Of a stretch of 64,000 nt of DNA, positions 1 through 14,200 are shown piece by piece (positions within the stretch are counted from its first letter, which is position 1; each line of letters starts with the position of its first letter). Location: NCBI RefSeq assembly GCF_027812955.1, contig NZ_JAPYZV010000001.1:1-64000 (forward strand). The letters run 5' to 3'. Source of the DNA: Pedococcus sp. 5OH_020. GTDB lineage: Bacteria; Actinomycetota; Actinomycetes; Actinomycetales; Dermatophilaceae. The position numbers were made by a program, and so were the translations under genes. Below the pieces are notes generated by a model. That model was given only the letters and a program-made list of their open reading frames with translations. It was not told the DNA's origin and ran no database searches.

Positions 1-489
1 AGTGCTTACGACCCAGCCCTGCATCAAGCACATCAGCAGGCACTGCACCCGCGGACTTGACTTAGGTAACTCAAACGCCGCATCTCCGACGCCATCTTCC
101 GACAGCTCGTCACCGATACCGCAGCAGCCCGGCCCGAGAGCGTGGACGCGGGTCCGGGAGGGCACCGCGGGGCGTCACTTCAATCCAGCGCGGCCGGCTC
201 ACATCCGCACACCGGCACTTCACTATGTGTTGGTGAGCCGGTGCTGGTCTGGCTGCCCCTTAAGGGACATGACGGCTGGTCGCGCGTCAGGATGCTGGCG
301 TGGGTGGGTCTGACTCCTCGGCACTTCCGACGTCGCCTACGGGTGGCTGTCCTTCATCCGACCTGTCGACCGGCCCAGCTCACATCCCTATGTGGCCGGG
401 CGGGCCGTCATGTCCTGATAGGGGTTTGACGAGGTCCCGATAGTGAACTGACTGACGCCCGCCCGGCTGCACCCACCGGCACAAGATCA
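1..489. other. No supportable gene; left flank of the IS110 element
   Basis: Short open frames occur here, but none has a recognisable motif, a convincing ribosome binding site or family resemblance. The frame entering from the left edge stops within about 60 bases, so it could be the tail of a gene outside the window. The last 80 bases probably belong to the 5' non-coding end of the IS110-type element that follows. IS110 elements lack clear terminal inverted repeats, so I cannot place the boundary. Confidence 0.4.
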
Positions 490-1599
490 ATGATGCGACA
501 CGAGCATGGACGGCAACAGCGTCAGCAGCCGGGACGCACTGATGGGGCCGGGTGGGTGTACGCCGGGATCGACACCCACGCCGACACCCACCACGTCGCG
601 GTCATCGACACCCACGGGCGCCCGGTCGACGACCTGCGGGTCGAAGCCACCGCCCGCGGCTACCGCGAGGTCGTCAGGTTCCTGGCCCAGTGGGTGGGCG
701 TGGCGCTGGTGGGGTGGAGTGCACCGGCAGCTACGGCGCCGGTGTCACCCGAGCCTTGACCGAGGCCGGCTACGACGTCCGGGAGGTCAACCGCCCCAAC
801 CGGTTCGACCGGCGAGCCCGCGGCAAGACTGACGTCTTCGACGCCTACTCCGCCGCCGAAGCCGTCCTGTCCGGGCGGGCCACCGCGGTACCGAAGGGAG
901 GCGACGGGCTCGTCGAGGCGCTCCGCGCACTGCGGACCACCAGGTCCTCGGCCCTGCGGGAACGCACCGCGACGATCAACCAGATCAAGGCCATGCTGGT
1001 CGCCGGCCCGGAGAGCCTACGGGCCCGGTACCGGGGACTGTCGAACAGCAAGCTGACCACCGCGCTGGCAGCTTCACGCCCACCGGCCCAACCGGTGACC
1101 GCCGAAGAGGCCACCGCCTACTCGCTGCGGGTCCTGGCCCGCCGGTACCGGATGCTAAGCGAGCAGGTCACCGATCTGAAGGGCCAGCTGACCCGGCTCC
1201 TGGACGGCCACGCCCCCGGCCCTGATGTCCGTGTTTGGGGCCGGGCCGGACACTGTCTCCCAGTTGCTGATCACGGCCGGAGACAACCCCGCCCGGCTAC
1301 GCACCGAGGCCCACTTCGCCGCCCTCGCTGGGGCCTGCCCGATCCCGGCCTCCTCCGGCAAGACCAACCGTCACGGGCTCAACCGGGCCGGCGACAGGCA
1401 GGCCAACTCCGCGCTCTACCACATCGTGATCGTGCGGATGGCCCACCACCAGCCCACCCGCGACTACGTCACCCGCCGAACGGCTCAAGGCCGCACCAAG
1501 ATGGAAATCATCAGGTGCCTGAAGCGCTACCTCGCCCGCCACCTGTACCGACTCATCTACGACACCCTCGCCGGCCAGTCCCCGGGCCTGAATGCTTGA
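490..1599 (+). pseudogene. IS110-family transposase, broken by two frameshifts
   Basis: Three consecutive frames together make one IS110-type transposase. The first (from 490) carries the start of the DEDD RuvC-like domain, with YAGIDTHADTHHVAVID. The second (about 720 to 1225) carries ECTGSYG and KTDVFDAYSAAEAV, the later DEDD acidic positions, followed by the helical middle. The third (1225 to 1599) is the Transposase_20 domain with the usual NRAGDRQANSALY segment that contains the catalytic serine region. Frame order is 1, 3, 1, so the two shifts compensate each other. A normal IS110 transposase is about 400 residues in one frame, so this copy is probably inactive unless the sequence has errors. 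No terminal inverted repeats were seen, as expected for the family. Confidence 0.85.
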
Positions 1600-1744
1600 C
1601 GGGCACCTATAGGAGTGTCGGATCAGCCACTTCCCGGACCCGCACCAACGACGCTACGCCCGGCCGCCGCGACGCGAAAGACCCACCTCAAAGCGACCGG
1701 TTGACAACAGAAGGGTGCCGAAGTGCTGCACCGTGATCCGCAAG

Positions 1745-1873
1745 CGGGCCGAGCAGCGCCGCGGTCAGACGGCTTCATGGTGCCCCCATTAAGGCGTTGC
1801 CTGGGCGACCAGTACTCGATCCCTACCCGCCGGTGCCCGGGGAAGGGGTACCAGCATCACCGATCCGGAGCAT
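1745..1873. repeat. Left part of diverged repeat copy 1, interrupted by IS256
   Basis: This stretch resembles 13690-13815 with scattered differences. Shared strings include GGCGTTGCCTG, GACCAGT and CACCGAT-CGGAGCAT. The resemblance resumes at 3287 on the other side of the IS256 element, so the insertion sequence split an older repeat of several hundred bases. I see no gene in the repeat itself. Similarity was judged by eye, and the outer limits are approximate. Confidence 0.6.
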
Positions 1874-3157
1874 GGGAGGGGACAGCGCCCCGCGGAGTGG
1901 TGGGCTTTTGAGGTGTTCCTCGGTGCCAACTCGCCGCTTTGGAGGGCGGCGATGGCTCCAGTATTGCCGTTGGGCTTGAGAAGGGCCATGGAGCCCTCGG
2001 AGAGGTAGCGGCGGTCCCCGGATTGCCATTCGTCGTGCATGTCGGCCAGCACCGCGCCGACCAGCCGGATGACGGCGGCCGGGTTGGGGAAGATGCCCAC
2101 GATGCGGGCTCGGCGCTTGATCTCCTTGTTCGCCCGCTCCAGCGGGTTCGTGCTCCAGATCTTGGACCAGTGCGCCCGAGGGAAGGCGGTGAAGGCGAGC
2201 ACTTCAGCCTTGGCGTGGTCCATCAGCGGACCGATCTTGGGGAACCGGGCGGCAAGCTGGTCGCGGACCTCGTCCCAGGTGGCCGAGACGGTGTCGGCGT
2301 CGGGTTGGGCGAAGATGGTGCGGAACACCGCGGCGACCATGTCCTTGTGGCTCTTGGGCACCAGGGCCAGCAGGTTCCGGGCGAAGTGCACCCGGCAGCG
2401 TTGGTGGGCCACCCTCTGGAAGCATCGGCGCAGCGCGGCGACCAGGCCGGCGTGCTGGTCGGAGATGACCAGTTGCAGGCCGCTTAGGCCGCGCTTCTTC
2501 AGCTCGGTCAGGAAGCCGCGCCAGAACACCTCGTCCTCGCTGTCGCCCACATCCAGGCCCAGGACCTCACGGCCGCCGTCGGCGGTGATCCCGGTCGCTA
2601 CCACCACGGCCATGGAGGTGACCTGGGAGGTGTCGTTGCGCACGTGCAGGTACGTCGCGTCAAGGTACACGTACGGGAACTCGGTATGGTCCAGGCGCCG
2701 AGTGCGGAAGGCGGTGACCACCTCGTCCAGCCCGGCGCAGATGCGGGAGACCTCGGACTTTGGAGATACCGGCGTCGATGCCCAGCGCCGCGACCAGGTC
2801 GTCCACCGAGCGCGTGGAGACCCCGGACACGTAGGCCTCCATCACCACCGCGTACAACGCCTGGTCGATGCGGCGCCGCGGCTCGAGGATGACCGGGAAG
2901 AACGACCCCTTACGCAACTTGGGAATCCGCAGGTCGACGTCGCCGGCCTGGGTCGACAACAGCCGCGACCGTGACCCGTTGCGCTCGGTCACCCGCGCCT
3001 GGGTGCGCTCGTAAGGGGCGGCGCCGATCTTCTCGCTCGCCTCGGCCTCGATCAGCTCCTGCATCACCAGCCGAACCGACTCGCGGATCAGATCGACACC
3101 CTCACCGGCGCGGAACGCCTCGAGCAGCTCGGACACGGCAGACTGGGACAACGCCAT
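1789..3157 (-). pseudogene. IS256-family (Mutator) transposase, frameshifted
   Basis: The gene starts at an ATG at 3157 with MALSQSAVSELLEAF. Its first part holds the family N-terminus, including RVTERNGSRSR and DVDLRIPKLR. After about 130 residues a one-base insertion near 2758-2762 breaks the frame. The rest continues from about 2750 in another frame and holds the catalytic DDE core: YLDATYLHVR, the second Asp in VISDQHAGL, the RCRVHFARNLL segment, and the Glu in NPLERANKEIKRRARI. Together they make about 410 residues plus a run-on tail, because no stop precedes the left IS end. The copy is probably inactive. A sequencing error at the short homopolymer is the alternative. Confidence 0.88.
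1874..1883. repeat. Left target-site duplication of the IS256 element
   Basis: GGGAGGGGAC here is repeated exactly at 3277-3286, immediately outside the two inverted repeat ends of the IS256-family element. IS256 elements usually duplicate 8 or 9 bases, so one of the ten matching bases may be chance. Its presence on both sides shows a simple transposition into the older repeat. Confidence 0.75.
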
Positions 3158-3276
3158 CGGTGGGACTCCTTCGGATGAGTACTTGGCCGTACACACCGAA
3201 GATCCCGCCGATGGCCCCAACACCTCCGAAGCCGCGCCGCTCACCCAAAACCCCACCACTCCACGGGACGCCCACT
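1884..3276 (-). mobile_element. IS256-family insertion sequence, about 1.39 kb
   Basis: The limits come from the target duplication (1874-1883 and 3277-3286) and terminal inverted repeats. The left end (1884-1912) and the complement of the right end (3276-3244) share AG, a 4-base gap, then CG-CCCG-GGAGTGGTGGG-TTTTG-G with few mismatches. The single gene inside is a Mutator-type transposase on the minus strand. Length and layout match ordinary IS256 elements. The transposase frame has no stop before the left end and runs on to 1789 in flanking DNA. Confidence 0.85.
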
Positions 3277-3286
3277 GGGAGGGGAC
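3277..3286. repeat. Right target-site duplication of the IS256 element
   Basis: Exact copy of 1874-1883 (GGGAGGGGAC). Directly after it the sequence resumes the older repeat (CGCCGGCGCTCGGGGCGTG) that is also present, uninterrupted, near 13825. Confidence 0.75.
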
Positions 3287-3403
3287 CGCCGGCGCTCGGG
3301 GCGTGTGCCCCAGTTGTGCTCCCGCGCTGGTACGGCCTGCAGTAGATGCAGTCAGATCCAGCCGCCTGAAGCAGGGCGCAGCCAGGGCGACGGCGCTATG
3401 GGG

Positions 3404-3519
<116 letters not shown>

Positions 3520-3861
3520 GCTTGTGCCCCCATGTGACTCCCGCGCACGCATGCAGTCCATGCACTAGGTTTGCCCTTCTCACTCCGGATCGGCACTGCT
3601 TACGCCTGGTAGCCACGCTCGGACCGGTTGGGCTTTGCCATGCGGGGGGTGCAGTCCCGGGTGAGGACCGTCGTGCCCGCCTGCATAACGGGCGGCGGAC
3701 GTGCTGGCTGGGGACATGGTCCCGATGCCCAACAGCGCCCAGAAGATCGCCCACTTCCTGAGCGGCAGCGTGGCCGCTGGATGGGCATCTTCGGGATCCG
3801 ACCCAGCGGCCGGGGTGCCGGCTGCTTCTGCCGCGTACGCCCGCCCGCCCGATGCCCGCTC
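3520..3861. other. Intergenic; diverged continuation of the repeat
   Basis: No gene is supported. The first 140 bases still resemble 14057-14200 at a lower level, for example around TTGCC-TTCTCACT. The open frames present are low-complexity GC-rich shadows without motifs. Confidence 0.45.
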
Positions 3862-4473
3862 TCAAAGCGCGGCTTTGGCGGCGAAAGGACGGCACCCGCT
3901 GTGGCGGTCATGCAGGGTGCCGGACATCGCGGTCGTGGGGCTGCGCGGAGTCCGCCTATCGCAGCATGCGTTCTCTATCAGTCCGTCGAGGTCTGGATCG
4001 ACCTGCTCGGTCCCGTCGTATGCGAATCCGTTCTTCTCATAGAAGCGTCGAGCCCGCCTGTTCTCCTTAGCGACCCACAGCTGTGCAGGCCGCCCGCTAA
4101 GGGCCTCGTCAAGGAGAGCTTGACCAACACCGTCGCCATAGCAGGTGGACAGCACGTAGAGGGCGTACAGCTGCTCACCGCGCCGCGGCGGGTGCCCCTG
4201 GTGCTCGGTGGCCGGACCGCGCGCGACAAGCCCCACGATCCGGCCTTCGTGCCGGGCGACGCGGACCCGCTCTCCCGCATCTCCTCCTGCGAGCAGACCC
4301 GACCACATCACCCGCTTACGGTCGCGCGCGGCGTCATCATAGAACCGCTCCGGGAGCAGCCCACCGTAGGCTTCGCGCCACGCCTGAATGTGGACCGAGG
4401 CCAGCTCCTCGGCGTCATCGGGGCACGGCACAACAACCTCGAAGGCCGTGGTTGCCACAGTGCATACTCCCAC
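3862..4473 (-). CDS. GNAT-family N-acetyltransferase
   Basis: This is a single GNAT domain that would transfer an acetyl group from acetyl-CoA to an unknown amine. The N-terminal strand and helix (PDDAEELASVHIQAWREAYGG) are typical of the family. The acetyl-CoA binding segment is ALYVLSTCYGDGVGQALLDEAL, and near the end is the usual LWVAKENRRARRFYEKNGF. The start is a GTG at 4473, and a GTG at 4458 is also possible. After the GNAT fold (about residue 165) the protein continues for some 35 residues with no family match, and the gene ends close to the repeat zone. The original C-terminus may have been replaced by a rearrangement. It has no operon partner. Confidence 0.75.
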   Translation of the reverse strand: MGVCTVATTAFEVVVPCPDDAEELASVHIQAWREAYGGLLPERFYDDAARDRKRVMWSGLLAGGDAGERVRVARHEGRIVGLVARGPATEHQGHPPRRGEQLYALYVLSTCYGDGVGQALLDEALSGRPAQLWVAKENRRARRFYEKNGFAYDGTEQVDPDLDGLIENACCDRRTPRSPTTAMSGTLHDRHSGCRPFAAKAAL

Positions 4474-4710
4474 GCCGCGCTGCCTCGTTCATCGCGAGGG
4501 CCGCAATCCGGTTGAGCAATGCGTGACCAGAGTCAAGGACCGAGGTAGAAACAAGCTGCTGCTACCGCCCACAGCTTGGTCGGCAGCCGGCGGTGGGACG
4601 CACCGCTTTGCGGCGGTATGACGCATGGCGGGACACATCACCGCCTGCTGAACCACCGCCGTTACGCCCGGGCCGGCGCCCAGGGAAGAAGCATGGCTAC
4701 AGCTGCGCTC
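4474..4710. other. Intergenic, no gene seen
   Basis: A 237-base gap between two leftward genes. I see no motif-bearing frame and no convincing terminator hairpin. Confidence 0.4.
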
Positions 4711-5415
4711 CTACACGGTGACCAATTCGGCGATCTTCTTGGCGATGTCCTCCCAGGAGTCCTCGTCCGTGCTCAGCCCGTTGCGGGAGCCCAGGAGCGG
4801 GCTCACTGACCGAATCTCGTCATAAGTCACGCCGTGCGCGACCGGGATGAGCAGGTCCCGTGCAAGCAGTTCCGAGAGTTCCTTCTCGGACACCCCGCCG
4901 CTCTCGATGCGCTTGAGGAATGCGGGCGTGATGAGCACGAGGCCGATCCGCGTCTTGGCAAGGCCCTTGTCGATCTCCCGCATAAACGGCTGGCCAAGGA
5001 CGATATCTCTCTCACTAAACCAGACCGACACGTCCTCCGCCTCGAGGAGGTTGTGCAGTTCGGTCGCAGACTCGCGGCGGTCGTCCCAGGCGTGGCAGAG
5101 GAAAAGGTCGTAGGACTCAGCCCGCGGTCCCACCGCCTCGACCTTGCTGCGGTACCGGTCCAGTGCCGCGACCTCGTCGGGGGTATACGTAACGGGCGAG
5201 TTGGCCGGCGACCACCGAGGCCGCGCCGATCGGCCACGACCGCTGCTGGAGGAGTTCCCTCCGCCGCTGCTGCGGGACAGTGCGGGCGAGGAGTAGTACG
5301 AAGGCGACGTGTTCGGCGAGTAGGACCGGTACGAGGACCGGCCGCCGCACGCCGGACAGTTCGCGGCGGCGTTCGACGTGCGGTGACCTTGGACAGGTGC
5401 GGTGCATTGAGCCAT
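4711..5415 (-). CDS. TIR-domain protein with N-terminal zinc-ribbon-like segment
   Basis: The chosen ATG at 5415 gives 234 residues. The N-terminus has a short Cys pattern (MAQC, then NCPACGG) that could bind zinc. A Ser/Gly/Tyr-rich linker follows, then a TIR domain from about residue 95. The TIR features are YDLFLCHAWDDR (strand A and box 1) and VWFSERDIVLGQPF, where the Glu is at the position that is catalytic in NAD-cleaving TIRs. Bacterial TIR proteins of this kind often cleave NAD in antiphage or signalling roles, but no function is shown here. The membrane protein at 5500-6501 lies 84 bases upstream on the same strand and is a likely partner. The frame extends to 5490, but the leading 25 residues look non-coding. 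Confidence 0.8.
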   Translation of the reverse strand: MAQCTAPVQGHRTSNAAANCPACGGRSSYRSYSPNTSPSYYSSPALSRSSGGGNSSSSGRGRSARPRWSPANSPVTYTPDEVAALDRYRSKVEAVGPRAESYDLFLCHAWDDRRESATELHNLLEAEDVSVWFSERDIVLGQPFMREIDKGLAKTRIGLVLITPAFLKRIESGGVSEKELSELLARDLLIPVAHGVTYDEIRSVSPLLGSRNGLSTDEDSWEDIAKKIAELVTV

Positions 5416-5499
5416 GGTCCGAGGGTACGAGAGGCCGCCGACAAAGACGCGGAGCAGGGCGACTGGTCGCGGCGCTCGTCGTGCAGGCAAAGGGGGGCT

Positions 5500-6501
5500 C
5501 TAGCAGTCCCCAAGGTCGGTCGCTTCATCCTTCGAGGCGACCAGGAGCGACGCATCGTCTACATGGTTCTTCCGCAGCTGGTCCCCGTACTGGGAGCCTG
5601 TGAAGAAGGCGACGATAGGACGGTAGCCCTTCATCACGGCCTCCACTTGCTTGCTCCGCACCTCGACGATCAAGCATCCTGGTTCATCCGCGTCCTCAAG
5701 GCCAAATCTCGCACCTGCAGGGAACTCCATGAGAATTTCCCTCTTGGCTTCCGCGAGATTGGTTCCTTCCTCGAAGCTGACGGTGTAGATGACGATGCGT
5801 TCCTTGGGGCCGCCACTGACCGCTCCGTACTTGGGTTGGTCACCATTCACCATGGGCAGAAAGGCCGCGCCCGCTGTGTATCCGGGCGCTTGTTGATGGT
5901 GCGCGTCCCAGTCCTCTCTCAGGGCGCCGTAGCCCGTGAGCCGAGCAGGAGGTGCTGGGGCGGGGCGCGGGGACGAGGCGGATGTGGTCGGAGTGGTGGC
6001 GGCCAACGGCGCGGATGTGGTCGGAGTGGTGGCGGCGACGGTCGGCGAGCTGAATGTTGGAGGCGACGTAGAGGTGCTGGGTGCTTGCGAACTTGTCGTT
6101 GTTGAAGTTGGGGTCGAAGGTATCGGCGCGTTGGTGGTAGAACGCGTCGTGGAACTAGAGAGTGGTGCGCTGGACCGGGCACTCGCTTTCGGCGCAGCAA
6201 CGAAATTGCTCGTCGTTGTGGTGGGAGCGGGGGGAGTGAGTGCGCCCCCCACGATAAGGGCCAGAAGGGACACTCCGGCCGTCGCGGCCGCGGCCTTACG
6301 TGTGCGCAGTCGTGCCCACCGGGCGTGTCCGATAGCGGTTGCGATCCCGAAGCCGACGAAGCCGACGAGCCCCACGAATGCAAAGCCGGCAGCAAGCGCG
6401 CCCCCCAGCCCGCAGATCAATAGCAGGAGGGCAGCAACGACACACAGGATCACAAGGAGGATCGGGAACCGTTCCCTGCGGGGAGTGGTGGTTCTAGGCA
6501 C
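5500..6501 (-). CDS. Membrane protein with long Ser/Thr/Pro linker and extracellular domain
   Basis: The 333-residue protein starts at a GTG (6501) with GAGGA eight bases upstream. Residues about 10-60 contain two or three hydrophobic helices, and another helix lies near 75-88. A run of roughly 100 residues rich in Ser, Thr, Pro and Ala follows, typical of an extracytoplasmic stalk. The C-terminal 130 residues form a compact domain with a single late Cys in LGDC. I do not recognise the family. The gene is directly upstream of, and probably co-transcribed with, the TIR gene, which suggests a membrane sensor or anchor for it. That link is inferred from position only. Confidence 0.7.
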   Translation of the reverse strand: MPRTTTPRRERFPILLVILCVVAALLLLICGLGGALAAGFAFVGLVGFVGFGIATAIGHARWARLRTRKAAAATAGVSLLALIVGGALTPPAPTTTTSNFVAAPKASARSSAPLSSSTTRSTTNAPIPSTPTSTTTSSQAPSTSTSPPTFSSPTVAATTPTTSAPLAATTPTTSASSPRPAPAPPARLTGYGALREDWDAHHQQAPGYTAGAAFLPMVNGDQPKYGAVSGGPKERIVIYTVSFEEGTNLAEAKREILMEFPAGARFGLEDADEPGCLIVEVRSKQVEAVMKGYRPIVAFFTGSQYGDQLRKNHVDDASLLVASKDEATDLGDC

Positions 6502-6962
6502 TGCTTAGTCCTCGCTCTAACTGTGGCTGGCGGATTCAGTCTGAGGCATTAGGGAGCGGTTCGCCCCTCATGTTGGCAAATTGTGCAGATGGTCGCGCTC
6601 TCCGTGCCTTCGGCGGACCTTCCTTCGGCGCGTCTGACAACGAACCGTCGAGGGGGCGCACCGAAGATCGCGATTCGCGATGCGGACGCCATGGACAGCT
6701 GCAGCGGTCACCGAGGATCACCAGTGGCGGATGCTCGGCATGGACGGCAGGTGCACGACCGTCAAGAGGTGGTGGTGTCGCTGCCAGTTGTTTGCTGACC
6801 AACACCGCCCCGAGCCAATCACGGGCGAGGCTCCGCTGCCAATTACATGAACGAACTGGGCGAGCGCCTAGCCGCGCCTGTTAGGTCGTTCCATCAGGAA
6901 GTCCCGGATTCTTGAAGCCATGCTCGCAGAATTGTCGGCGTTGTCATCCAATCGGCAACGGC
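6502..6962. other. Intergenic, no gene supported
   Basis: Several frames of 70 to 100 codons overlap on both strands, but none has motifs or a ribosome binding site. The promoter for the leftward membrane protein and TIR pair should lie just right of 6501. I could not pick a clear -35/-10 pair. Confidence 0.4.
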
Positions 6963-7208
6963 TCAAGCTGCCCTGCACAATGAACGCAAATCCCGAAGAA
7001 TCATGGCGACTCCAACAAGCATTTTGCCCAGGCGCATGAGGTCGGCCCCGCCGATCGCGAACCCAAGGCCCGAGGTGATGTTCCCGACCCACACTAGGCT
7101 TTGACGCTCCTGCACAATGGCGCTCGCCACTAGCGCCATGCCGAGACCGCAAACCAGGAAGGACAACCCGAACCACAAGTCGGAACGCAGGTGAATGATT
7201 CCGTCCAA
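6963..7208 (-). CDS. Possible small membrane protein
   Basis: An 81-residue frame starting at TTG (7208) would have two hydrophobic helices, about residues 12-31 (LWFGLSFLVCGLGMALVASA) and 43-60. The composition is less GC-extreme than its surroundings. No ribosome binding site is visible, and its start overlaps the beginning of the truncated toxin gene on the other strand. It may be a real small gene or a chance frame. Confidence 0.3.
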   Translation of the reverse strand: MDGIIHLRSDLWFGLSFLVCGLGMALVASAIVQERQSLVWVGNITSGLGFAIGGADLMRLGKMLVGVAMILRDLRSLCRAA

Positions 7209-7472
7209 GAGGATGGCCCGACGCTTGGCCGGCCCCTAGTCGACCGGATCAAGGGTTCGAGGCGACACAACCTGAAGGAACTGCGGCCGGGCAGTTCCGG
7301 GTCCAGTGAGGTGCGCGTCTTGTTCATCTTCGACCCGCAACGACAGGCCGTCCTGCTTCTGGGTGGAGACAAGTCCGGGGCTTGGTCGCAGTGGTACCGG
7401 CAGAACATCCCTGAGGCGGAGCGCCGGTATGAACGCTGGCTTGCCGGTGACTATGACGACGAAAGGACGTGA
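7191..7472 (+). pseudogene. HigB/Gp49-type toxin, N-terminally truncated
   Basis: The 93-residue frame matches the C-terminal two thirds of phage-derived Gp49-like/HigB ribonuclease toxins: GPTLGRPLVDRIKGSR, NLKELRPGS and VRVLFIFDPQRQAVLLLGGDKSG are characteristic. Full-length relatives have about 45 more residues in front of GPTLGRP, including the first strands, and these are missing here. The 5' part seems to have been replaced by the DNA holding the small membrane frame. The damaged antitoxin follows five bases later, so the whole pair looks dead. Confidence 0.7.
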
Positions 7473-7477
7473 GGACG

Positions 7478-7788
7478 ATGGCTAAGAACTGGTCGCAGGT
7501 ACGTGGGCAGGCTGCGCGCTGCTTGACTCCGAGCAGGTCGATGAGGCCAAGGAGCACCTAGACGAACAGGTCCGCGCGTACCGCCTTGCAGAGGTGCGTC
7601 GGCGTCAGGGAGAGAACCAGGTCGAGGTTGCGAAGCGGATGAAGGTGTCCCAATCGCGACTATCCCGAATCGAGTGAGGCGACCTGAGCCACACAGAGCT
7701 GGGCACCCTGAAGTCCTACGTCGAAGCCCTGGGCGGCCGATTCGAGGTCAGCGCGACGTTTGGAGACGAGTCGATTCGCCTCAACTGA
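7478..7788 (+). pseudogene. HigA-type (Xre, HTH) antitoxin with frameshift and nonsense codon
   Basis: Starts at the ATG at 7478 with MAKNWSQVRGQAA, then loses frame near 7518. The correct reading resumes with LDSEQVDEAKEHLDEQVRAYRLAEVR and the helix-turn-helix EVAKRMKVSQSRLSRIE. A TGA at 7675-7677 then replaces a sense codon. After that the frame continues as GDLSHTELGTLKSYVEALGG to a stop at 7786-7788. Without the two lesions this would be an Xre-family antitoxin of about 103 residues, the usual partner of the toxin just upstream. Both halves are inactivated, which fits decay of the pair. Confidence 0.72.
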
Positions 7789-8607
7789 GTCGACGGCAGG
7801 CTTGTGCCCCGGTTGGTGGCCACAAATGTTTCGTTCGCGGGCTTGGTCGTTCGGCAAAGGCTTGAGGTGCGGCGGACCGGTCGATAGGTCACCGGCCCCA
7901 TGGAGCTCCGGCTGAACCCAGCCCTGCGGGGACTATTCTTGTCGCCAGTTCGGGTGCCGTAACGGATGACCCGGTCCAGCCGGCCGTGAAGAGGTTCGTG
8001 AAGGACAGGGTCTGGCAGTACATCTGCGCCGGTACGTGTCCCGGGCCGCAGGGATCCTGCAGGCGTTGATGGAGGAGCCACCCTGGCGTGGAATCCACGT
8101 CGGGCGGCTCCCGCGTCAAGCCGCCACGCGGACCGGTGGTCGACCGACCTTTCAGTCCGCGCCGCGCGCCTCGTCCCGGCGCATGGCTCAACCACAGCGC
8201 CGGCGTCCCTAGGCGGCATGCCGGACAAACGCCAAGCTGCGGTCCGCGCCTTGTGCCGCCGACGACAACTGTGCGGATGCCCGAACCATTCGGCCTCCTC
8301 CCGTCTCGGGCGAGTGAGCAGCCAGTCTTCGTGCTCACCGCCGTCCGAGTGCCCCCACTCGCCTGCAGCGCCCTGCGGCCCTGACCGTGTCGCCCACGGT
8401 TGGGGAGCCACTCATCTTGCTGCGGGGAGTCTCGGTCAAATGGGCGATATTTGCCAGAAACGCCCCACCGGGGGCCTCTTAGGATGGAACACTCTCGCAC
8501 GGACCTCACCGCACGAGTGGTGCCTGGTCTGCCGTGCCTGCGCAGCATCCGCCACTCGGCACGTTTATACGAGGCGGGCCGGCGCAAGCGCTCGAGGGGG
8601 TAAGGCA
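7789..8607. other. Long intergenic stretch before the six-gene operon
   Basis: About 820 bases with no supportable gene. Frames on both strands are open because of high GC but carry no motifs. The promoter of the operon at 8608 should be in the last 150 bases. No operator repeats were found by eye. Confidence 0.4.
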
Positions 8608-9870
8608 ATGACTCATCCGTCTGTGGCGCTGCTGCGAGACGTTGCGCTGGACGATCGGATGCAGCACCACGCTCCTGAACTGAGACGGCTAGCAAACGCG
8701 ATCGAGGAGGGCGGTCTGGCCTTTTCTGAGTTCGCCTACGTTGACCTGCCCAGGCAGTTCGACGGGCACGAGCTGATCCAAAAGGCTCGACCGTCCTGGC
8801 TCGCGTCGGTTCAAGCCGCCCCAGCGGTTCTGGTGTACCTGCCCTTGATGTTCACGTGGGCGGGCCTGGCAATGGCCTCGGCCGCCCAAGGACGCCTGGT
8901 CGCACGCGGGGTGTCGCCGGAGGGAACATCGTTCCTCGGTCTGTGGCAGACCGGTTTTCAGGGCGAGCTTGCTACGCCCTTCCGCTTCGGAAACGTAGCG
9001 GGGCTCACTGCGCTGGCGCTCGTGCTGACACTGGCCACAGTGCTTCTGGCGGGAACGCTCGGGCGGCGGTGGGAGCGCGACGAAGCGCAGGCCTCTTCCG
9101 CCAGCGCCAAAAAGCTGGCGGCCGCCCTCCGTCAGGCCGACAGGTACCGCTCCTCCTGGCGAAGTCAGTTTGAGCATCAGTCGCGCGCGGATCTGTCGGC
9201 CGCGGCGTCAGAGGTGAAGGGCCTTCAGACGAAGGCCCAGACGCTGATGACCAAGGCCGTTCGCGCGGCAGAGTCGCTTGATGAGCAGAGCCAGTCTCTT
9301 GCGTCGGCGGTCATTGCCGTTTCAGAGACTTCGACCCAGGTCCTCGCCGCTGGGGGGCGAGTTCAGCAGGCGTCAGAAGCCGCCCTCGCCACCAGTGGAC
9401 GCATGGATGTGTCCCTTGCTGCCCTCGTCGATCTGATTGCAGAGACCGAGGCGCAGGTTACGGCCAACGCGACGGCCGCCCAGCAGCGTGTGGAGCGGCT
9501 AGCCGATGAGCTGACCAGGCTTCTCGAGGACTACAGCCAGGGTGTCAGCGCCGCAGCGCTGCAGGCCATCGGCGAGATGGCCCGGGAGGGGTCGGGACGG
9601 CTGCTGGAGGCGCTTGGTGCAGTGGAGCAGCAGCTCCTGGCGGTATCGGAGGTCGTGCGGGCCGGCATGGCCACGTCCCTAAGCGTCGTTGATGCCAGTG
9701 GTCAACTTCTGACGCGAATGGACCGTTGGGAGCAATCAGCCCGGATGTCGACCGATTCGCTGCTAAGCCGCGTTGATGAGCTTGCCACCCAGACCGCGGC
9801 CGTGGCCTCGGAACTGCGGGCAGCTTCGGCCTCGATGCGCGAACCGGCGGCCATGGGTGGGACTGGATGA
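8608..9870 (+). CDS. Two-TM protein with long cytoplasmic coiled-coil tail (ZorA/MotA-like by context)
   Basis: The ATG at 8608 follows GAGGGGG with seven bases between, giving 420 residues. Two hydrophobic helices lie at about 68-92 (VQAAPAVLVYLPLMFTWAGLA) and 128-152. From about 155 to 410 the protein is Ala/Glu/Gln/Arg-rich heptad sequence, predicted as a long coiled coil. MotA, TolQ and ZorA proteins combine membrane helices with such a tail, and the next gene is MotB-like, so a stator role is plausible. Only two helices are visible, fewer than in MotA or ExbB, and I see no MotA family signature. The assignment therefore rests on architecture and neighbourhood. It is the first gene of a tightly overlapped operon. 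Confidence 0.72.
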   Translation: MTHPSVALLRDVALDDRMQHHAPELRRLANAIEEGGLAFSEFAYVDLPRQFDGHELIQKARPSWLASVQAAPAVLVYLPLMFTWAGLAMASAAQGRLVARGVSPEGTSFLGLWQTGFQGELATPFRFGNVAGLTALALVLTLATVLLAGTLGRRWERDEAQASSASAKKLAAALRQADRYRSSWRSQFEHQSRADLSAAASEVKGLQTKAQTLMTKAVRAAESLDEQSQSLASAVIAVSETSTQVLAAGGRVQQASEAALATSGRMDVSLAALVDLIAETEAQVTANATAAQQRVERLADELTRLLEDYSQGVSAAALQAIGEMAREGSGRLLEALGAVEQQLLAVSEVVRAGMATSLSVVDASGQLLTRMDRWEQSARMSTDSLLSRVDELATQTAAVASELRAASASMREPAAMGGTG

Positions 9871-10391
9871 GGGCATCCAGCAGGGCGGTTCCGCTGCCCC
9901 TCGTCGGCTGGCTTTTCGCCGATCTCATGCTTCTGCTGGCCATCGTGGGCTTCGGACAAGCACCCACAATGCCGCACAAGCCCTCTCCGTCGGCCACTGC
10001 GGTCGCGGCCACCGGCACCCCCAAGGCCACCGCACCGACCAAGACGACCCCCAAGGTCACCCAGCGACCGATCGGGGTGAGCCAGAACGCCATTGTGGTT
10101 GCCTTTCCGGTCCCGACCGCCAAACTGCTCGCGCACGACACGAAGGCCGTACACGACCTCGACGCTCGGCTGCGCAAGGAGATGGCGCGGATCAAGGGGC
10201 AGCGCGCAGGGATCGTGCTCACGTTCGGCGTGGACCCCGATGATGCTCGGGCGTTGGCACTCTCACACGTGGTGAACGAGCGCCTGAGGCGTCAAGCCCC
10301 CGCCCTAACGCAGGGTGCCCTAGTTCGCGACTTTGTGAGCCTGAGCGGCTCAAACGCCATCAAAATTGAAGTGTATCTATTCACTAAGTAA
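9867..10391 (+). CDS. MotB/ZorB/TolR-like membrane protein with intramembrane Asp
   Basis: The ATG at 9867 overlaps the previous stop (ATGA). The 174-residue protein has one N-terminal helix, about residues 13-30, reading GWLFADLMLLLAIVGFG. Its Asp19 sits inside the membrane at the place where MotB, ExbD, TolR and ZorB carry the proton-binding Asp. A Pro/Thr/Ala-rich linker (33-68) leads to a C-terminal domain (about 72-174) with a strand-helix pattern suggesting a degenerate OmpA-like peptidoglycan-binding fold. I cannot see the full OmpA motif. With the coiled-coil protein it would form an ion-driven membrane complex. That is inference from topology and order. Confidence 0.72.
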   Translation: MRASSRAVPLPLVGWLFADLMLLLAIVGFGQAPTMPHKPSPSATAVAATGTPKATAPTKTTPKVTQRPIGVSQNAIVVAFPVPTAKLLAHDTKAVHDLDARLRKEMARIKGQRAGIVLTFGVDPDDARALALSHVVNERLRRQAPALTQGALVRDFVSLSGSNAIKIEVYLFTK

Positions 10392-10406
10392 GGATCCATC
10401 GAACCC

Positions 10407-11072
10407 ATGAGCGAACAAGTTCTTCCCTTTTACCTGGTCTGCGACGAGTCCGGTTCCATGACGGCTGGCATTGACGACATGAACGACGGCCTCGGCAAGC
10501 TCCATGCCGAGATCGCCAACAACCCAGTGGTCGCGGACAAGACGCGGTTCGCGGTGATCGGATTCTCCGACGACGCTGAGGTCCTCCTGCCGCTGTCTGA
10601 CCTGGCCGATGTGGAGGAGATACCCGGACTCACAGCCAAGGGCGGGACCTGCTTCGGTGCCGCCTTCAAGAGGCTGAAGCAGGAGATCCAGAAGGATGTG
10701 GGCCAGCTCAAGGCCGACGGCCACTCCGTACTCCGCCCGGTGGTCTTCTTCCTGTCAGACGGACAGGCAACCGACCGTGGTTGGGAGAGCGCCCACGCAG
10801 ACCTGGTGAGCCCCTCGTTCCCCGCGTACCCGAAGATCGTTGCCTTCGGCCTGGAGCAGGTCGACGAGAACACCATCAAGCGGGTGGCTACCTTCAAGGC
10901 CTTCATGGCCGACGGCGGCGTCAGCCCTGCGGTTGCACTGCGCGAGTTCGCCAGTTCGTTGACCAAGTCGATCGTGCGGTCGGGCAGCACGCTGGCCGGG
11001 ACCGGAGCCCCGACCCTGCAGGTGGAGGACTCAGTCCCGGGCTTCACATCACTTCCCCTAGACCAGATCTGA
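10407..11072 (+). CDS. von Willebrand factor A domain protein, TerY-like
   Basis: This is a 221-residue single vWA domain without a signal peptide, so probably cytoplasmic. The metal-ion-dependent adhesion site is complete: DESGS at residues 13-17, Thr81 in AKGGTCFG, and Asp118 in FFLSDGQATD. TerY proteins of tellurium-resistance-associated triads have this form and occur next to a PP2C phosphatase and a kinase, exactly the two genes that follow. It starts 15 bases after the previous gene. Its last codon overlaps the next start (TGATG). It may act as the metal-dependent scaffold that the kinase and phosphatase modify. Confidence 0.85.
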   Translation: MSEQVLPFYLVCDESGSMTAGIDDMNDGLGKLHAEIANNPVVADKTRFAVIGFSDDAEVLLPLSDLADVEEIPGLTAKGGTCFGAAFKRLKQEIQKDVGQLKADGHSVLRPVVFFLSDGQATDRGWESAHADLVSPSFPAYPKIVAFGLEQVDENTIKRVATFKAFMADGGVSPAVALREFASSLTKSIVRSGSTLAGTGAPTLQVEDSVPGFTSLPLDQI

Positions 11073-12040
11073 TGAGCACGGCCGACCTGGGGCATGTCTC
11101 CGTGGTTGACACGGCGACCGCGGACGGGTTCGAGGAGACGCCTACCGAGAATGTCGGTGAACCTCAGACGATGCTTCCCAGCGTGCCAGCGTTCCCGGGC
11201 CCATTCACGCCAGGACGCCCGGCGCGGGCCCCCAGCATGCCGAATGGCCTTCTCTCGGGGGAGTTTGAGGCGGACACGGTCCTTGATGGCGGTCAGGTGC
11301 TCGGTGGCGTGGTTCGAGCCGCGTCAGTTCGTGGTACGAGCCACCGCTGGGACAATGAGCCGCGCCAGGACGCGATGCTCGTTGGTCGCGTCGAAGTCGA
11401 ATGGGGCGAGGCAGCCGTTCTGGTCGTGGCCGACGGGGTCGGGAATGCGGCGCATTCGGACCGGGGCTCCGCGATCGGAGTGAAGGCGGCAATGGACTCG
11501 GCACGGCACTTAATCCAGGAGTGGGCCGATCCGGGGACCGTCGACGTGGACCAGTTCGCTCGCCGCGTGATGGATGTGGCGTCGGAGGCAATCGCCTCCG
11601 AGGCCCATGAGCGCCAAGTTTCACCGGCGGAATTCGCCACGACGCTCTGCCTGGCAGTGCTCGTGAGGGGCGAGACGGGGACCGTCCGGGCGTGGGTGTG
11701 CGGTGTCGGTGACAGCGGCCACCGTACTCTTCGACGTGGTGCCTTCGACGTTTTGGACGGGACAGAGGAGATCCAAGACACGCTCACCGCGGCGCTCCCG
11801 TCGACTAGCGTTCCGACCGTCACGTCCGTCGACCTGCTACCAGGAGATTGCCTCGTTCTCGCCACGGACGGGGTCCTGAACCTGCTTCTAGACCAAGAGC
11901 GCAGCGCGCGGTTCGCGAGTCAGCTGTCTGTGTCCCCCGACATGGGCTTGGCGCACTACCTGTGGGTGATTGACGCGTCGGTGCGCAGCTTCGACGACGA
12001 CCGAACGGCCGTCTGCTTCTGGGCCGGTTCGGCGCGGTGA
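11072..12040 (+). CDS. PP2C-family serine/threonine phosphatase
   Basis: The ATG at 11072 overlaps the vWA stop by one base, giving 322 residues. After a Pro-rich, probably disordered N-terminus (1-75) comes a PP2C domain. RQDAM (98-102) and VVADGVGNAAHSDRG (118-132) supply the first metal-binding Asp residues. VCGVGDSG and LATDGVL follow, and DDRTAV near the C-terminus supplies the last metal Asp. It should remove phosphate from Ser or Thr using Mn or Mg. The next gene is a kinase-like protein, so the two probably act on a common target. It is a member of the TerY-P type triad. Confidence 0.88.
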   Translation: MSTADLGHVSVVDTATADGFEETPTENVGEPQTMLPSVPAFPGPFTPGRPARAPSMPNGLLSGEFEADTVLDGGQVLGGVVRAASVRGTSHRWDNEPRQDAMLVGRVEVEWGEAAVLVVADGVGNAAHSDRGSAIGVKAAMDSARHLIQEWADPGTVDVDQFARRVMDVASEAIASEAHERQVSPAEFATTLCLAVLVRGETGTVRAWVCGVGDSGHRTLRRGAFDVLDGTEEIQDTLTAALPSTSVPTVTSVDLLPGDCLVLATDGVLNLLLDQERSARFASQLSVSPDMGLAHYLWVIDASVRSFDDDRTAVCFWAGSAR

Positions 12041-13017
12041 CACCGAACAACGGCGCGCCGGCGCCCCGGGTGCCGGTCCGCCAACGCAGCTCGCTTGCCG
12101 TCGTCGAGGGCGGCGACAGCGGAGGCCAGGGGCGCGTGCGGCTCTTAAGAGACCGGTCTGACCTGGTCTACAAGGAGTTCCACGACGCAGGCAAGCTGGA
12201 CCGTGGCGCGATGGACCGAATCTTGCGGCTGCCCGCCACGATGAGCGAGGCCGACCGAAGCACCCTCCTGTGCAACACGGCGTGGCCGGTGGAGCGTGTC
12301 GACGATGGGTCGCGGTTCGTGGGCTTCCTCATGGGCAAGATCCCGAGCGAGTTCTGGTACGAGGATCCGGTGGTGGGACATCGACTGCTGGAATTTCAGC
12401 ATCTGATGTTCCCGCCGAGGGCCACGCGCAAGGCGGTGCCCGAGCCGTCCACCGCCCAGAGACTGGCAATTCTGCGGTCCGCGGCGGAGATCTTCGCCTT
12501 CCTTCACGGGCACTCGTTCATCGTGGGCGACGTGTCAATGAAGAACATCGTGTGGTCCCTCAGCCCACGCCCCCGGGCCTTCCTGATCGATTGTGATGGG
12601 TGCCGGAAGGTGTCATATCTGCCTGTCCTGCATCAGGCGGACACTCCCGAGTGGGACGACCCGCTGCGCCAAGGCAACACATCAACCGAGGCGAGCGACC
12701 GGTACAAGCTGGCACTTCTGATCGGCAGGGGGCTTAACGTCAGGTACTCCTGGCGGCCAACAGACCCAGACCCGTTCGGGGCACGCCCCGACCTGCCGGA
12801 AAAGCAGCGGCAAGCCCTGACCCGGCTGAGCCAGGCGGCCGCAGGCCCGCTGCACACTCGTCCGTCTGCCGCCGAATGGGCCTCGGCGCTCGGCGATCGG
12901 CCGATGATTCGGCTCTCCGCGCCGGGTCCCTCGACCAACGGAGCCGTGCATCAGCCCACACAGCCCAACCCACGGAACCCGGCACGACCCAAGATCCGGC
13001 TCCGAGAGACGCCGTGA
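12037..13017 (+). CDS. Divergent protein-kinase-like protein of the TerY-P triad
   Basis: Starts at GTG 12037, overlapping the phosphatase stop (GTGA), 326 residues. A glycine-rich segment (about 25-33) and VYKEF (Lys46) stand for the nucleotide loop and the ATP-binding Lys. The catalytic loop is VGDVSMKNIVW, with Asp165 and Asn170, in place of HRDLKxxN. LIDCDGC (184-188) stands for DFG. The activation segment is short, and the last 50 residues are Pro-rich and disordered. This is the loop style of the kinases paired with TerY and PP2C. Kinase activity is likely but not certain given the divergence. Confidence 0.8.
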   Translation: MTPNNGAPAPRVPVRQRSSLAVVEGGDSGGQGRVRLLRDRSDLVYKEFHDAGKLDRGAMDRILRLPATMSEADRSTLLCNTAWPVERVDDGSRFVGFLMGKIPSEFWYEDPVVGHRLLEFQHLMFPPRATRKAVPEPSTAQRLAILRSAAEIFAFLHGHSFIVGDVSMKNIVWSLSPRPRAFLIDCDGCRKVSYLPVLHQADTPEWDDPLRQGNTSTEASDRYKLALLIGRGLNVRYSWRPTDPDPFGARPDLPEKQRQALTRLSQAAAGPLHTRPSAAEWASALGDRPMIRLSAPGPSTNGAVHQPTQPNPRNPARPKIRLRETP

Positions 13018-13634
13018 GTACCACACCCCTGTCGGCATCAGCCGCGCAGCTCATGACCGACGCATGGCGTCGGCCACCCGGCGGAATCGTGGAAGGCCTT
13101 GCGCTAGATTCCCAAGAGCGTCTCATCGGCGCCTGGGACACCGTGTTGCTCGAGGCTCGCCGGGGTCGCTCCCGTCATGTGTCCAATCGCGGGACGGTGC
13201 GATTCCCCATCATTGGCGGCGTTCGAGGCAGCCTCAGCCAAAGTCGCGGCACAACGGACAGTGAACCGGATCGACTCCAGCAGATCGACCAGGGCCGCTT
13301 CATGGTCACCAGCGAGCGCGGCGTGTTCGTCGGTCCCCTGGCCAACAGGGCCTGGCCGTGGAAACGCATGCTCTCCCTTGACGCCGAGCCGAGCGTGGGC
13401 CTGCTAGTGGTGGCCATCACCGGCCGGGAACGCAGCATCTGCCTGAGGACCTCGCCAGCGCAGATGAGCGACATCCGGGACATCATCGCCGCTGTTCAGT
13501 CGGGGTGGCCGGCTACAGGGCTACCGGCCTCTTGGCCGCCTGCGGCCCGGGCGTTGCCCGCGCCGGGGTCGAATCCCGGCCCCTCGGCACGCCAGCGCCC
13601 CACAATCCGACTCACACCGCCGCCCGGTCCGTAG
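13014..13634 (+). CDS. Uncharacterised protein with PH-like segment, last gene of the operon
   Basis: Starts at GTG 13014, overlapping the kinase stop (GTGA), 206 residues, no signal peptide or membrane helix. The middle part (about residues 85-150) has GRFMVTSERGVFVGP, then a Trp-rich WPWKRMLSL and a following strand. This is the pattern of bacterial PH-like domains that place a protein at a membrane or a partner. The C-terminal 50 residues are Pro/Ala-rich. I do not recognise a full-length family. The overlap with the kinase ties it to the same translation unit, so it is probably an adaptor or target of the kinase and phosphatase. Confidence 0.7.
   Translation: MSTTPLSASAAQLMTDAWRRPPGGIVEGLALDSQERLIGAWDTVLLEARRGRSRHVSNRGTVRFPIIGGVRGSLSQSRGTTDSEPDRLQQIDQGRFMVTSERGVFVGPLANRAWPWKRMLSLDAEPSVGLLVVAITGRERSICLRTSPAQMSDIRDIIAAVQSGWPATGLPASWPPAARALPAPGSNPGPSARQRPTIRLTPPPGP

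Positions 13635-13689: not shown

Positions 13690-14200
<511 letters not shown>

Follow-up and report, generated by a model that had tools for sequence, protein, structure and literature searches.

The operon at positions 8608-13634 of the window, by which we mean the whole stretch of 64,000 nucleotides that forms the left end of contig NZ_JAPYZV010000001.1 of Pedococcus sp. 5OH_020 (our contig C11; the genome comprises 4.43 Mb in 32 contigs), is the short form of a recurrent actinobacterial gene family, and this family is the larger find. Its five conserved genes encode two membrane proteins, here called A and B, a vWA protein, a PP2C-family phosphatase and a divergent kinase, and their order recurs in dozens of loci, beyond what chance would produce. 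With a confidence slightly above even, we read the five genes as one accessory system in which a wall-anchored, motor-like sensor sets a reversible phosphorylation switch, probably for defence. An earlier note on the same DNA had seen in the operon an ion-motor-like membrane pair joined to a phosphorylation triad and had supposed a membrane sensor or motor, possibly antiphage; the observation is confirmed and the interpretation partly supported. Its remark that it knew of no described system of this kind also stands: we found no paper with A-B and the triad together in the literature searched, which was mostly open literature, so that a description unseen by us is possible, and the family probably represents a defence or envelope-sensing system not described before.

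The operon consists of six genes, all on the plus strand, and the rechecked coordinates and frames agree with the tight packing reported earlier, the junctions being overlaps of 4, 1, 4 and 4 bases and a single gap of 15 bases. Gene A (8608..9870) encodes a membrane protein with an N-terminal helical domain, two transmembrane (TM) helices and a long cytoplasmic coiled coil, and is a candidate ExbB/ZorA-type subunit; gene B (9867..10391), which overlaps it by 4 bases, encodes one TM helix, a linker and an OmpA-like domain at about residues 70-173, and is a candidate MotB/ZorB-type subunit. The 15-base gap separates B from the vWA gene (10407..11072), to which the PP2C gene (11072..12040) is joined by an overlap of one base (TGATG), and the kinase gene (12037..13017), overlapping the PP2C gene by 4 bases, ends in a Pro-rich tail with the sequence KIRLRETP. 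Gene 6 (13014..13634) overlaps the kinase gene by 4 bases, has no assigned fold and carries the tail RPTIRLTPPPGP. Pfam recognises VWA_2 in the vWA protein (6e-11) and PP2C_2 in the phosphatase (1.6e-25) and nothing significant in A, B, the kinase or gene 6, the same four for which the PADLOC and NCBIfam scans give no solid match. The operon had been described as a six-gene unit; genes 1-5 do recur in order elsewhere, whereas gene 6 has no relative among the open reading frames (ORFs) of the related loci, and the conserved unit is therefore one of five genes, with gene 6 outside it and a six-gene system ruled out. The label "PH-like" once given to gene 6 is unsupported, as the protein matches nothing in Pfam, PADLOC, NCBIfam or a further search. 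We also note that the kinase tail RPKIRLRETP (12985-13014) resembles the tail of gene 6 (13596-13631) and that a related I-x-L tail ends many short-form kinases at other loci; the similar tails are possibly a docking motif.

The gene order was sought in other genomes through B. Scanning genome_contigs with an alignment of ten B proteins gave 186 stretches that fit the pattern, of which 118 encode a relative; our counts out of 80 refer to the best 80 of these 118 B relatives, with the window and 13 neighbourhoods obtained from a class sample kept outside the tallies. As the search used B only, the presence of the triad was not selected for. The class sample itself had given B relatives in 37 of 394 genomes at E 0.01, mostly weak, and two of its neighbourhoods, L050 and L051, were matched by neither the A nor the B profile; two others, L043 and L040, coincide with L093 and L095 of the best 80. 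Actinobacterial names stand on 78 of the 80 loci, the remaining two (L109 and L129) being metagenome-assembled, with the labels Thermoanaerobacterales and Anaerolineae. In 79 of the 80, A is present along with B, and the triad is complete in at least 59 and represented by at least one member in 68, one of them, L104, counted on a 45-bit PP2C match; the 59 is a lower bound, as a rescan with broader profiles adds missing triad members in L099, L107 and L123.

A search that started from the kinase led to the same genes. With the kinase of L042 as the query in 297 genomes of the order of L042, which is not the order of the window, 32 genomes matched at E 1e-20, and the 28 kinase loci tallied (L039 and L042 excluded, and G876 and G932, also kinase-positive, outside the count) all contain B; 27 have A, 26 have both vWA and PP2C, and 16 have the BREX genes BrxD and BrxHI. 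Fifteen of the 28 were already in the B set; among the 13 new ones, B is present in all and A in 12. The single locus without A, L209, begins inside B at a contig edge, and L213, with an unusual order of B and A, was counted as having both. The window's vWA protein, used alone as the query in genome_contigs, found no relative. The complete set of five genes is present in 39 loci, in 31 of which the overlap between A and B is exactly 4 bases, some of the junction outliers reflecting crude gene calling and start choice, and the pairwise distances of the five proteins (window and 39 loci) correlate at 0.84-0.96, values that none of 500 permutations reached for any pair. From the correlated distances and the kept overlaps it follows that all five proteins diverged together.

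Three arrangements recur among the B loci (ARRANGEMENTS I, II and III). Arrangement I, the order A-B-vWA-PP2C-kinase without the partners of the other two arrangements, is found in 38 of the 80. In arrangement II (11/80) the five genes are accompanied by BrxD and BrxHI, a pair that directly follows the kinase in nine loci, is found some 0.9 kb upstream of A in L077 and is on the opposite strand in L109. The last of these loci, with the label Thermoanaerobacterales, has two kinases besides vWA, PP2C and A-B. The claim that no effector genes accompany the operon thus holds for the window, whereas many relatives add the BREX-2 BrxD and the helicase BrxHI. Arrangement III has A-B, then a protein of about 700 residues without a family, and kinase, PP2C, vWA and GAP1 genes facing them on the other strand; it is full in 9 of the 80 loci, has a partial facing set in L090, L094, L099, L107 and L108, and is reduced to the large protein in L089, L100 and L113. 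Genes for GrpE and Hsp70 lie upstream in eight loci of this type (L088, L091-L094, L099, L116 and L119).

The vWA, PP2C and kinase genes are adjacent in the window, and their catalytic residues are intact, in agreement with what had been said of an intact metal ion-dependent adhesion site (MIDAS), a phosphatase and a divergent kinase. Conservation was assessed in sets formed of the window and the loci of the B search, with L042 left outside. The MIDAS residues D13/S15/S17/T81/D118 are kept in 54 of 54 vWA proteins, and PP2C residues D122, D267, D310 and D311 in 50 of 50 (numbered from the codon at 11069, one residue before the ATG); in the kinase set, the window and 50 loci, G29, G30, G32, K46, D165, N170, D185 and D187 are found in 51 of 51 and Q31 and G188 in 50 of 51. 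The window kinase was identified by these motifs and by its relatives, the family models of PADLOC and NCBIfam giving only weak matches to LanL, mad6 and Bud32. The set of three we take to be a TerY-type triad, and the three activities stand side by side in the window operon as they do there. The differences are that A-B precede the triad and that the window vWA protein has no TerY-C domain in Pfam; among the 15 window proteins scanned there was neither a TerY-C domain nor a Ter family, and plasmid proteins annotated with TerY-C match the window vWA protein at 26-30% identity.

For the membrane pair, hydropathy and AlphaFold2 models agree with the description of A as a two-TM coiled-coil protein and of B as a one-TM protein with an Asp in the helix. 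The model of A has N-terminal helices, a first TM helix at 78-99, a short helix and then one helix at 127-262 that would cross the membrane and extend into the cytoplasm, the confidence being high to about residue 200 and low past it. Conservation in A is strong at P79 and W84 (79 of 79 aligned sequences), T83 (78 of 79), and F109 and W113 (80 of 80). B has a single TM helix at 12-30 with Asp19 within GWLFADL, and G14-D19 is kept in all 65 aligned B proteins. Its model (mean predicted local distance difference test, pLDDT, of 85) continues after the TM helix with a Pro-rich linker of low confidence and a periplasmic domain of the order beta-alpha-beta-alpha-beta-beta, with pLDDT mostly above 94. 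The top three Foldseek matches of B are the peptidoglycan-binding domain of SiiA (E 2.8e-3 to 1.1e-2), with OprF/OmpA domains near E 1e-2, and in VIA OmpA is ranked first (Z 9.1, root-mean-square deviation 2.4, 93 aligned), Helicobacter pylori MotB reaching Z 8.4. The confident model thereby shows a predicted periplasmic OmpA/MotB-like fold in B, close to SiiA and MotB, from which the window operon differs in that Pfam shows no flagellar or secretion gene in it. Profile comparison of B with solved structures gave as best matches two ExbD sequences (E 0.52 and 0.83); the same comparison for A gave mostly coiled-coil matches, and its ZorA type II match (8vvi, E 0.015), confined to the coiled coil, was not used.

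The antiphage system Zorya, type II in particular, offers a close parallel in layout. As reported in PMC11890865, the cytoplasmic extension of ZorA in the solved type II complex starts at residue 100, a Ser/Thr ring surrounds the Asp of ZorB, and ZorB combines this TM Asp with a peptidoglycan-binding-like domain. By analogy, T83 of A, together with D19 of B, would fit an arrangement of this sort, and Asp19 is the likely ion-carrying residue. The pair A-B looks like a reduced MotAB/ZorAB-type pair; the part of this earlier proposal that stands is the invariant TM Asp and the OmpA/MotB-like domain of B together with the two TM helices of A, whereas the match of A is non-significant and that of B to MotB profiles weak. 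Structure predictions of the two proteins alone divide in the same manner, B fitting OmpA/MotB domains and A giving only an ExbB match at E 0.58.

The link to BREX type 2 is clearest in locus L117, where BrxD scores 588.6 bits against an NCBIfam cut-off of 350 (606 bits in PADLOC), PADLOC assigns the helicase to BrxHI with 1028 bits, and over its last 120-130 or so residues the kinase resembles the PglZ C-terminus (1e-19 in PADLOC; 6e-18 for the BREX-2 PglZ of NCBIfam, under that model's cut-off as it is a match of the tail only). Such a PglZ match was found in 11 of 19 chosen kinases, which equals in number, the members being unnamed, the long kinases of BrxD/BrxHI loci in the set. Of 14 genomes with BrxD/BrxHI loci, nine have some PglZ match and five exceed the family cut-off, and these five may hold a distant PglZ elsewhere; the best match in the 14 genomes is one of 38.5 bits (E 5.3e-9) in a 971-residue frame of G821. 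The six window proteins have no BREX match in PADLOC, the window genome has no PF10923 match for BrxC/BrxD, and its PglZ match sits on another contig than the operon.

Nature has also produced variants of the extended form. In L042 and L197, which are 99% identical and whose pseudokinase we count as one event, the catalytic Asp of the kinase is replaced by Asn, the catalytic Asn by Lys and the DFG-type Asp by Gly; vWA and PP2C are gone from the locus, and A-B, BrxD and BrxHI are kept. Such a joint loss of kinase catalysis, vWA and PP2C would be anticipated were the kinase the protein that PP2C and vWA serve. The L042 genome has another vWA protein of the same kind on another contig, 32% identical to that of the window.

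The presence of the operon is patchy, and sites free of it are observed. In the genus of G358, taken to be Streptomyces, B was found in 8 of 150 genomes (E 1e-5). An acyl-CoA dehydrogenase gene and the next flanking gene are 5.8 kb apart in L041, with the operon between them; in six of six B-less genomes of this Streptomyces-like genus whose site was read the two genes are 0.1-3.2 kb apart, and no A, B or kinase match is seen. In G604, of the same genus, the operon is at a different place, and there is therefore more than one site. Three genomes sampled from the window's own genus have no kinase match at E 0.001. In the window, direct repeats of 366 bp, imperfect (85.5%) and with an exact core of 116 bp, bracket a segment of about 10.2 kb in which the operon and a TIR gene lie; the left copy lies at 3285..3646 (core 3404-3519) and the right copy at 13822..14185 (core 13941-14056). 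Contig C8 carries an intact tRNA-Ala, and 30 bp of the core are identical to its 3' end. The repeats are thus like the attachment sites of integrating elements, to judge by analogy; none of the window proteins scanned, which cover some of the ORFs between the repeats, was recognised as an integrase.

Arrangement III touches on a further class of systems. PMC7159879 describes for GAP1-N2 a third theme of active kinase, PP2C and standalone vWA and a second theme of Hsp70 and GrpE, and A-B adjoins such genes in loci such as L091. The difference lies in the membrane pair: "MotA" does not occur in the text of PMC7159879, where the only instance of "zora" belongs to the name of an author. A GAP1 gene adjoins A-B in other loci, but the first 20 kb of the window yielded none. 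As a separate observation, Hsp70/GrpE and the kinase/PP2C/vWA/GAP1 set co-occur in L088, L091 and others, and these are themes that the same paper calls non-overlapping.

How the parts might work together can be outlined as follows. A and B would form a motor-like membrane complex in which the two TM helices of A surround the TM helix of B, and the OmpA-like domain of B would face the cell wall. An envelope perturbation, most simply phage injection, would change the state of B; the long cytoplasmic helix of A would relay this state to the kinase, which PP2C would reset, and the vWA protein would act as a scaffold. In the short form, as in the window, the output would be phosphorylation of some target. 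In the extended form, where the kinase has the tail related to the C-terminus of BREX-2 PglZ, it would probably be the loading or activation of a DNA helicase, with BrxD-BrxHI as a recruited effector. We infer the 5:2 assembly, the ion flow, the direction of signalling and the role of the vWA protein, and likewise the antiphage or defence function of the operon; that the sensed event would be phage entry is a guess, made because of the analogy with Zorya and the association with BREX. A bolder version, which we advance tentatively and at less than even confidence, would have an ion-driven motor set a kinase/phosphatase switch rather than act directly on an effector, the extended form licensing BrxD-BrxHI through a PglZ-derived docking tail with no BREX modification genes in the locus, and would make the family a new class of immune machine.

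Several results weigh against our reading of the five genes as a motor-like sensor with a switch used in defence, and a number of them concern the membrane pair. A has no significant match to MotA, ZorA or ExbB outside its coiled coil in sequence or structure comparisons: the ExbB match is the first in Foldseek, with other ExbB/TolQ chains lower and all non-significant; the ExbB rows of VIA (Z 6.5-7.0) are outranked by coiled-coil and BAR proteins; and the PADLOC match to ZorA (E 0.15) falls within the coiled coil, as do the ZorA matches of an A relative. For B, no Foldseek match reaches E 0.001; the unrelated RusA scores Z 7.9 in VIA, and the fold call therefore depends on how the list is ordered and on where the domain lies, after the TM helix; and hhalign, which places the F/Y-A-D sites of B and MotB opposite each other, gives the MotB profiles a weak score (E 0.05, probability 1%; an unrelated kinase profile gives E 0.37). 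OmpA domains typically carry an Asp/Arg peptidoglycan-binding motif, which was not apparent in B when the sequence was inspected by eye. Both the behaviour of A and the seeming absence of this motif would suit a membrane receptor or scaffold that is no ion motor, a two-TM coiled-coil protein and an OmpA-like wall anchor that cluster the triad. We regard this as possible, if on the unlikely side, for the TM Asp of B (65/65) and P79, W84 (79/79) and T83 (78/79) of A resemble the Asp and Ser/Thr ring of ZorAB as reported in PMC11890865, and the gene order with its 4-base overlap in 31 of 39 loci suits a stoichiometric complex. Were the operon instead a divergent Zorya system, the shared general layout, the ZorA-like cytoplasmic tail and the ZorB-like TM Asp with an OmpA-like domain would be accounted for at once; B, however, has no PADLOC match even at E 1, the ZorB model included, A matches ZorA in the coiled coil only, and the six window proteins match none of ZorC, ZorD and ZorE in PADLOC. 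A phosphorylation triad stands in place of the effectors, and the A-B family is actinobacterial, whereas the Zorya hosts named in that paper belong mainly to proteobacterial genera. Zorya proper is rejected on the family models, and a divergent form of it we find very improbable.

Among the adverse points that concern the unit and its purpose, 12 of the 80 B loci have no triad member (four of them, L100, L113, L124 and L129, are short or cut near the genes), and the plasmid relatives L015 and L016 are complete triads without A-B. Other plasmid relatives are L017, with only the kinase recognised, and L038, with only the vWA protein, and some adjoin other membrane proteins; the triad can serve partners other than A-B. 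L209 (1-420) lies at the edge of a contig in an assembly of 550 contigs; here B is followed by an intact kinase with neither vWA nor PP2C between them, although the letters MSEQVLP, like the start of a vWA protein, can still be read after B. This locus rejects a strict rule by which vWA and PP2C would disappear only when the kinase has lost its activity. The two are lost together in L042/L197 and in L209, and what constantly connects A-B with BrxD-BrxHI is the kinase. Three B queries against 72,556 plasmid records found no B relative, and of three stretches in viral_contigs that fit the B pattern none is a relative. No known effector was recognised in the five-gene form by Pfam, PADLOC or NCBIfam, and at least 13 of the 80 loci lie in one and the same chromosomal neighbourhood, with the same acyl-CoA dehydrogenase gene present in the stretch and adjoining A (small ORFs aside) in 10. 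The lack of plasmid copies, the lack of a recognisable effector and the shared dehydrogenase gene, together with catalytic sites kept as in a signalling circuit, are what one would expect of envelope-stress or cell-wall signalling unrelated to phages, in which the triad would tune growth or morphology to what the membrane pair detects in the wall. We consider this unlikely given the opposite evidence of B in just 8 of 150 genomes of one genus, the shared site free of the operon in all six genomes read, the other site in G604, the relatives with BrxD and BrxHI, and the three own-genus genomes without the kinase. The relatives with BrxD and BrxHI raise another alternative, a derivative of BREX type 2 most of whose BREX parts have given way to A-B, vWA and PP2C: extended loci have equivalents of BrxD and BrxHI and a PglZ-like kinase tail. 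The loci differ from BREX type 2 in that six of the seven L117 proteins (PP2C unscanned) have no PglX, PglY or PglW match, and the main text of the 2026 NAR survey of BREX (PMC12839542) contains none of "PP2C", "ZorA", "Zorya" and "MotA". Covering the extended form only, and facing a best PglZ match of 38.5 bits in the 14 BrxD/BrxHI genomes and a window genome without PF10923, such a derivation is in our view distinctly unlikely.

The A-B/triad family joins three things that have been studied separately, namely immune ion-motor complexes, reversible phosphorylation in defence, and the BrxD-BrxHI pair, in which the role of BrxD is called uncharacterized in the main text of PMC12839542. Its short and extended forms, the pseudokinase lineage and the natural deletion are ready comparisons for how a signal from a wall motor might reach a DNA helicase.

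Some further features were seen around these loci. The TIR-domain gene inside the window repeats lies at 4711-5418 on the minus strand (PF13676, 3.4e-14), about 3.2 kb upstream of the operon and on the opposite strand to it. In locus L226 (G000:C22:171001-191000), a run of genes at 197-13516 surrounds a strong PglZ match (E 9.5e-60); in sizes and order the genes look like those of BREX type 1, and a probable integrase gene is close by. At the left contig end, the window holds IS110-type and Mutator-type transposase genes (490-3895), each in two pieces.

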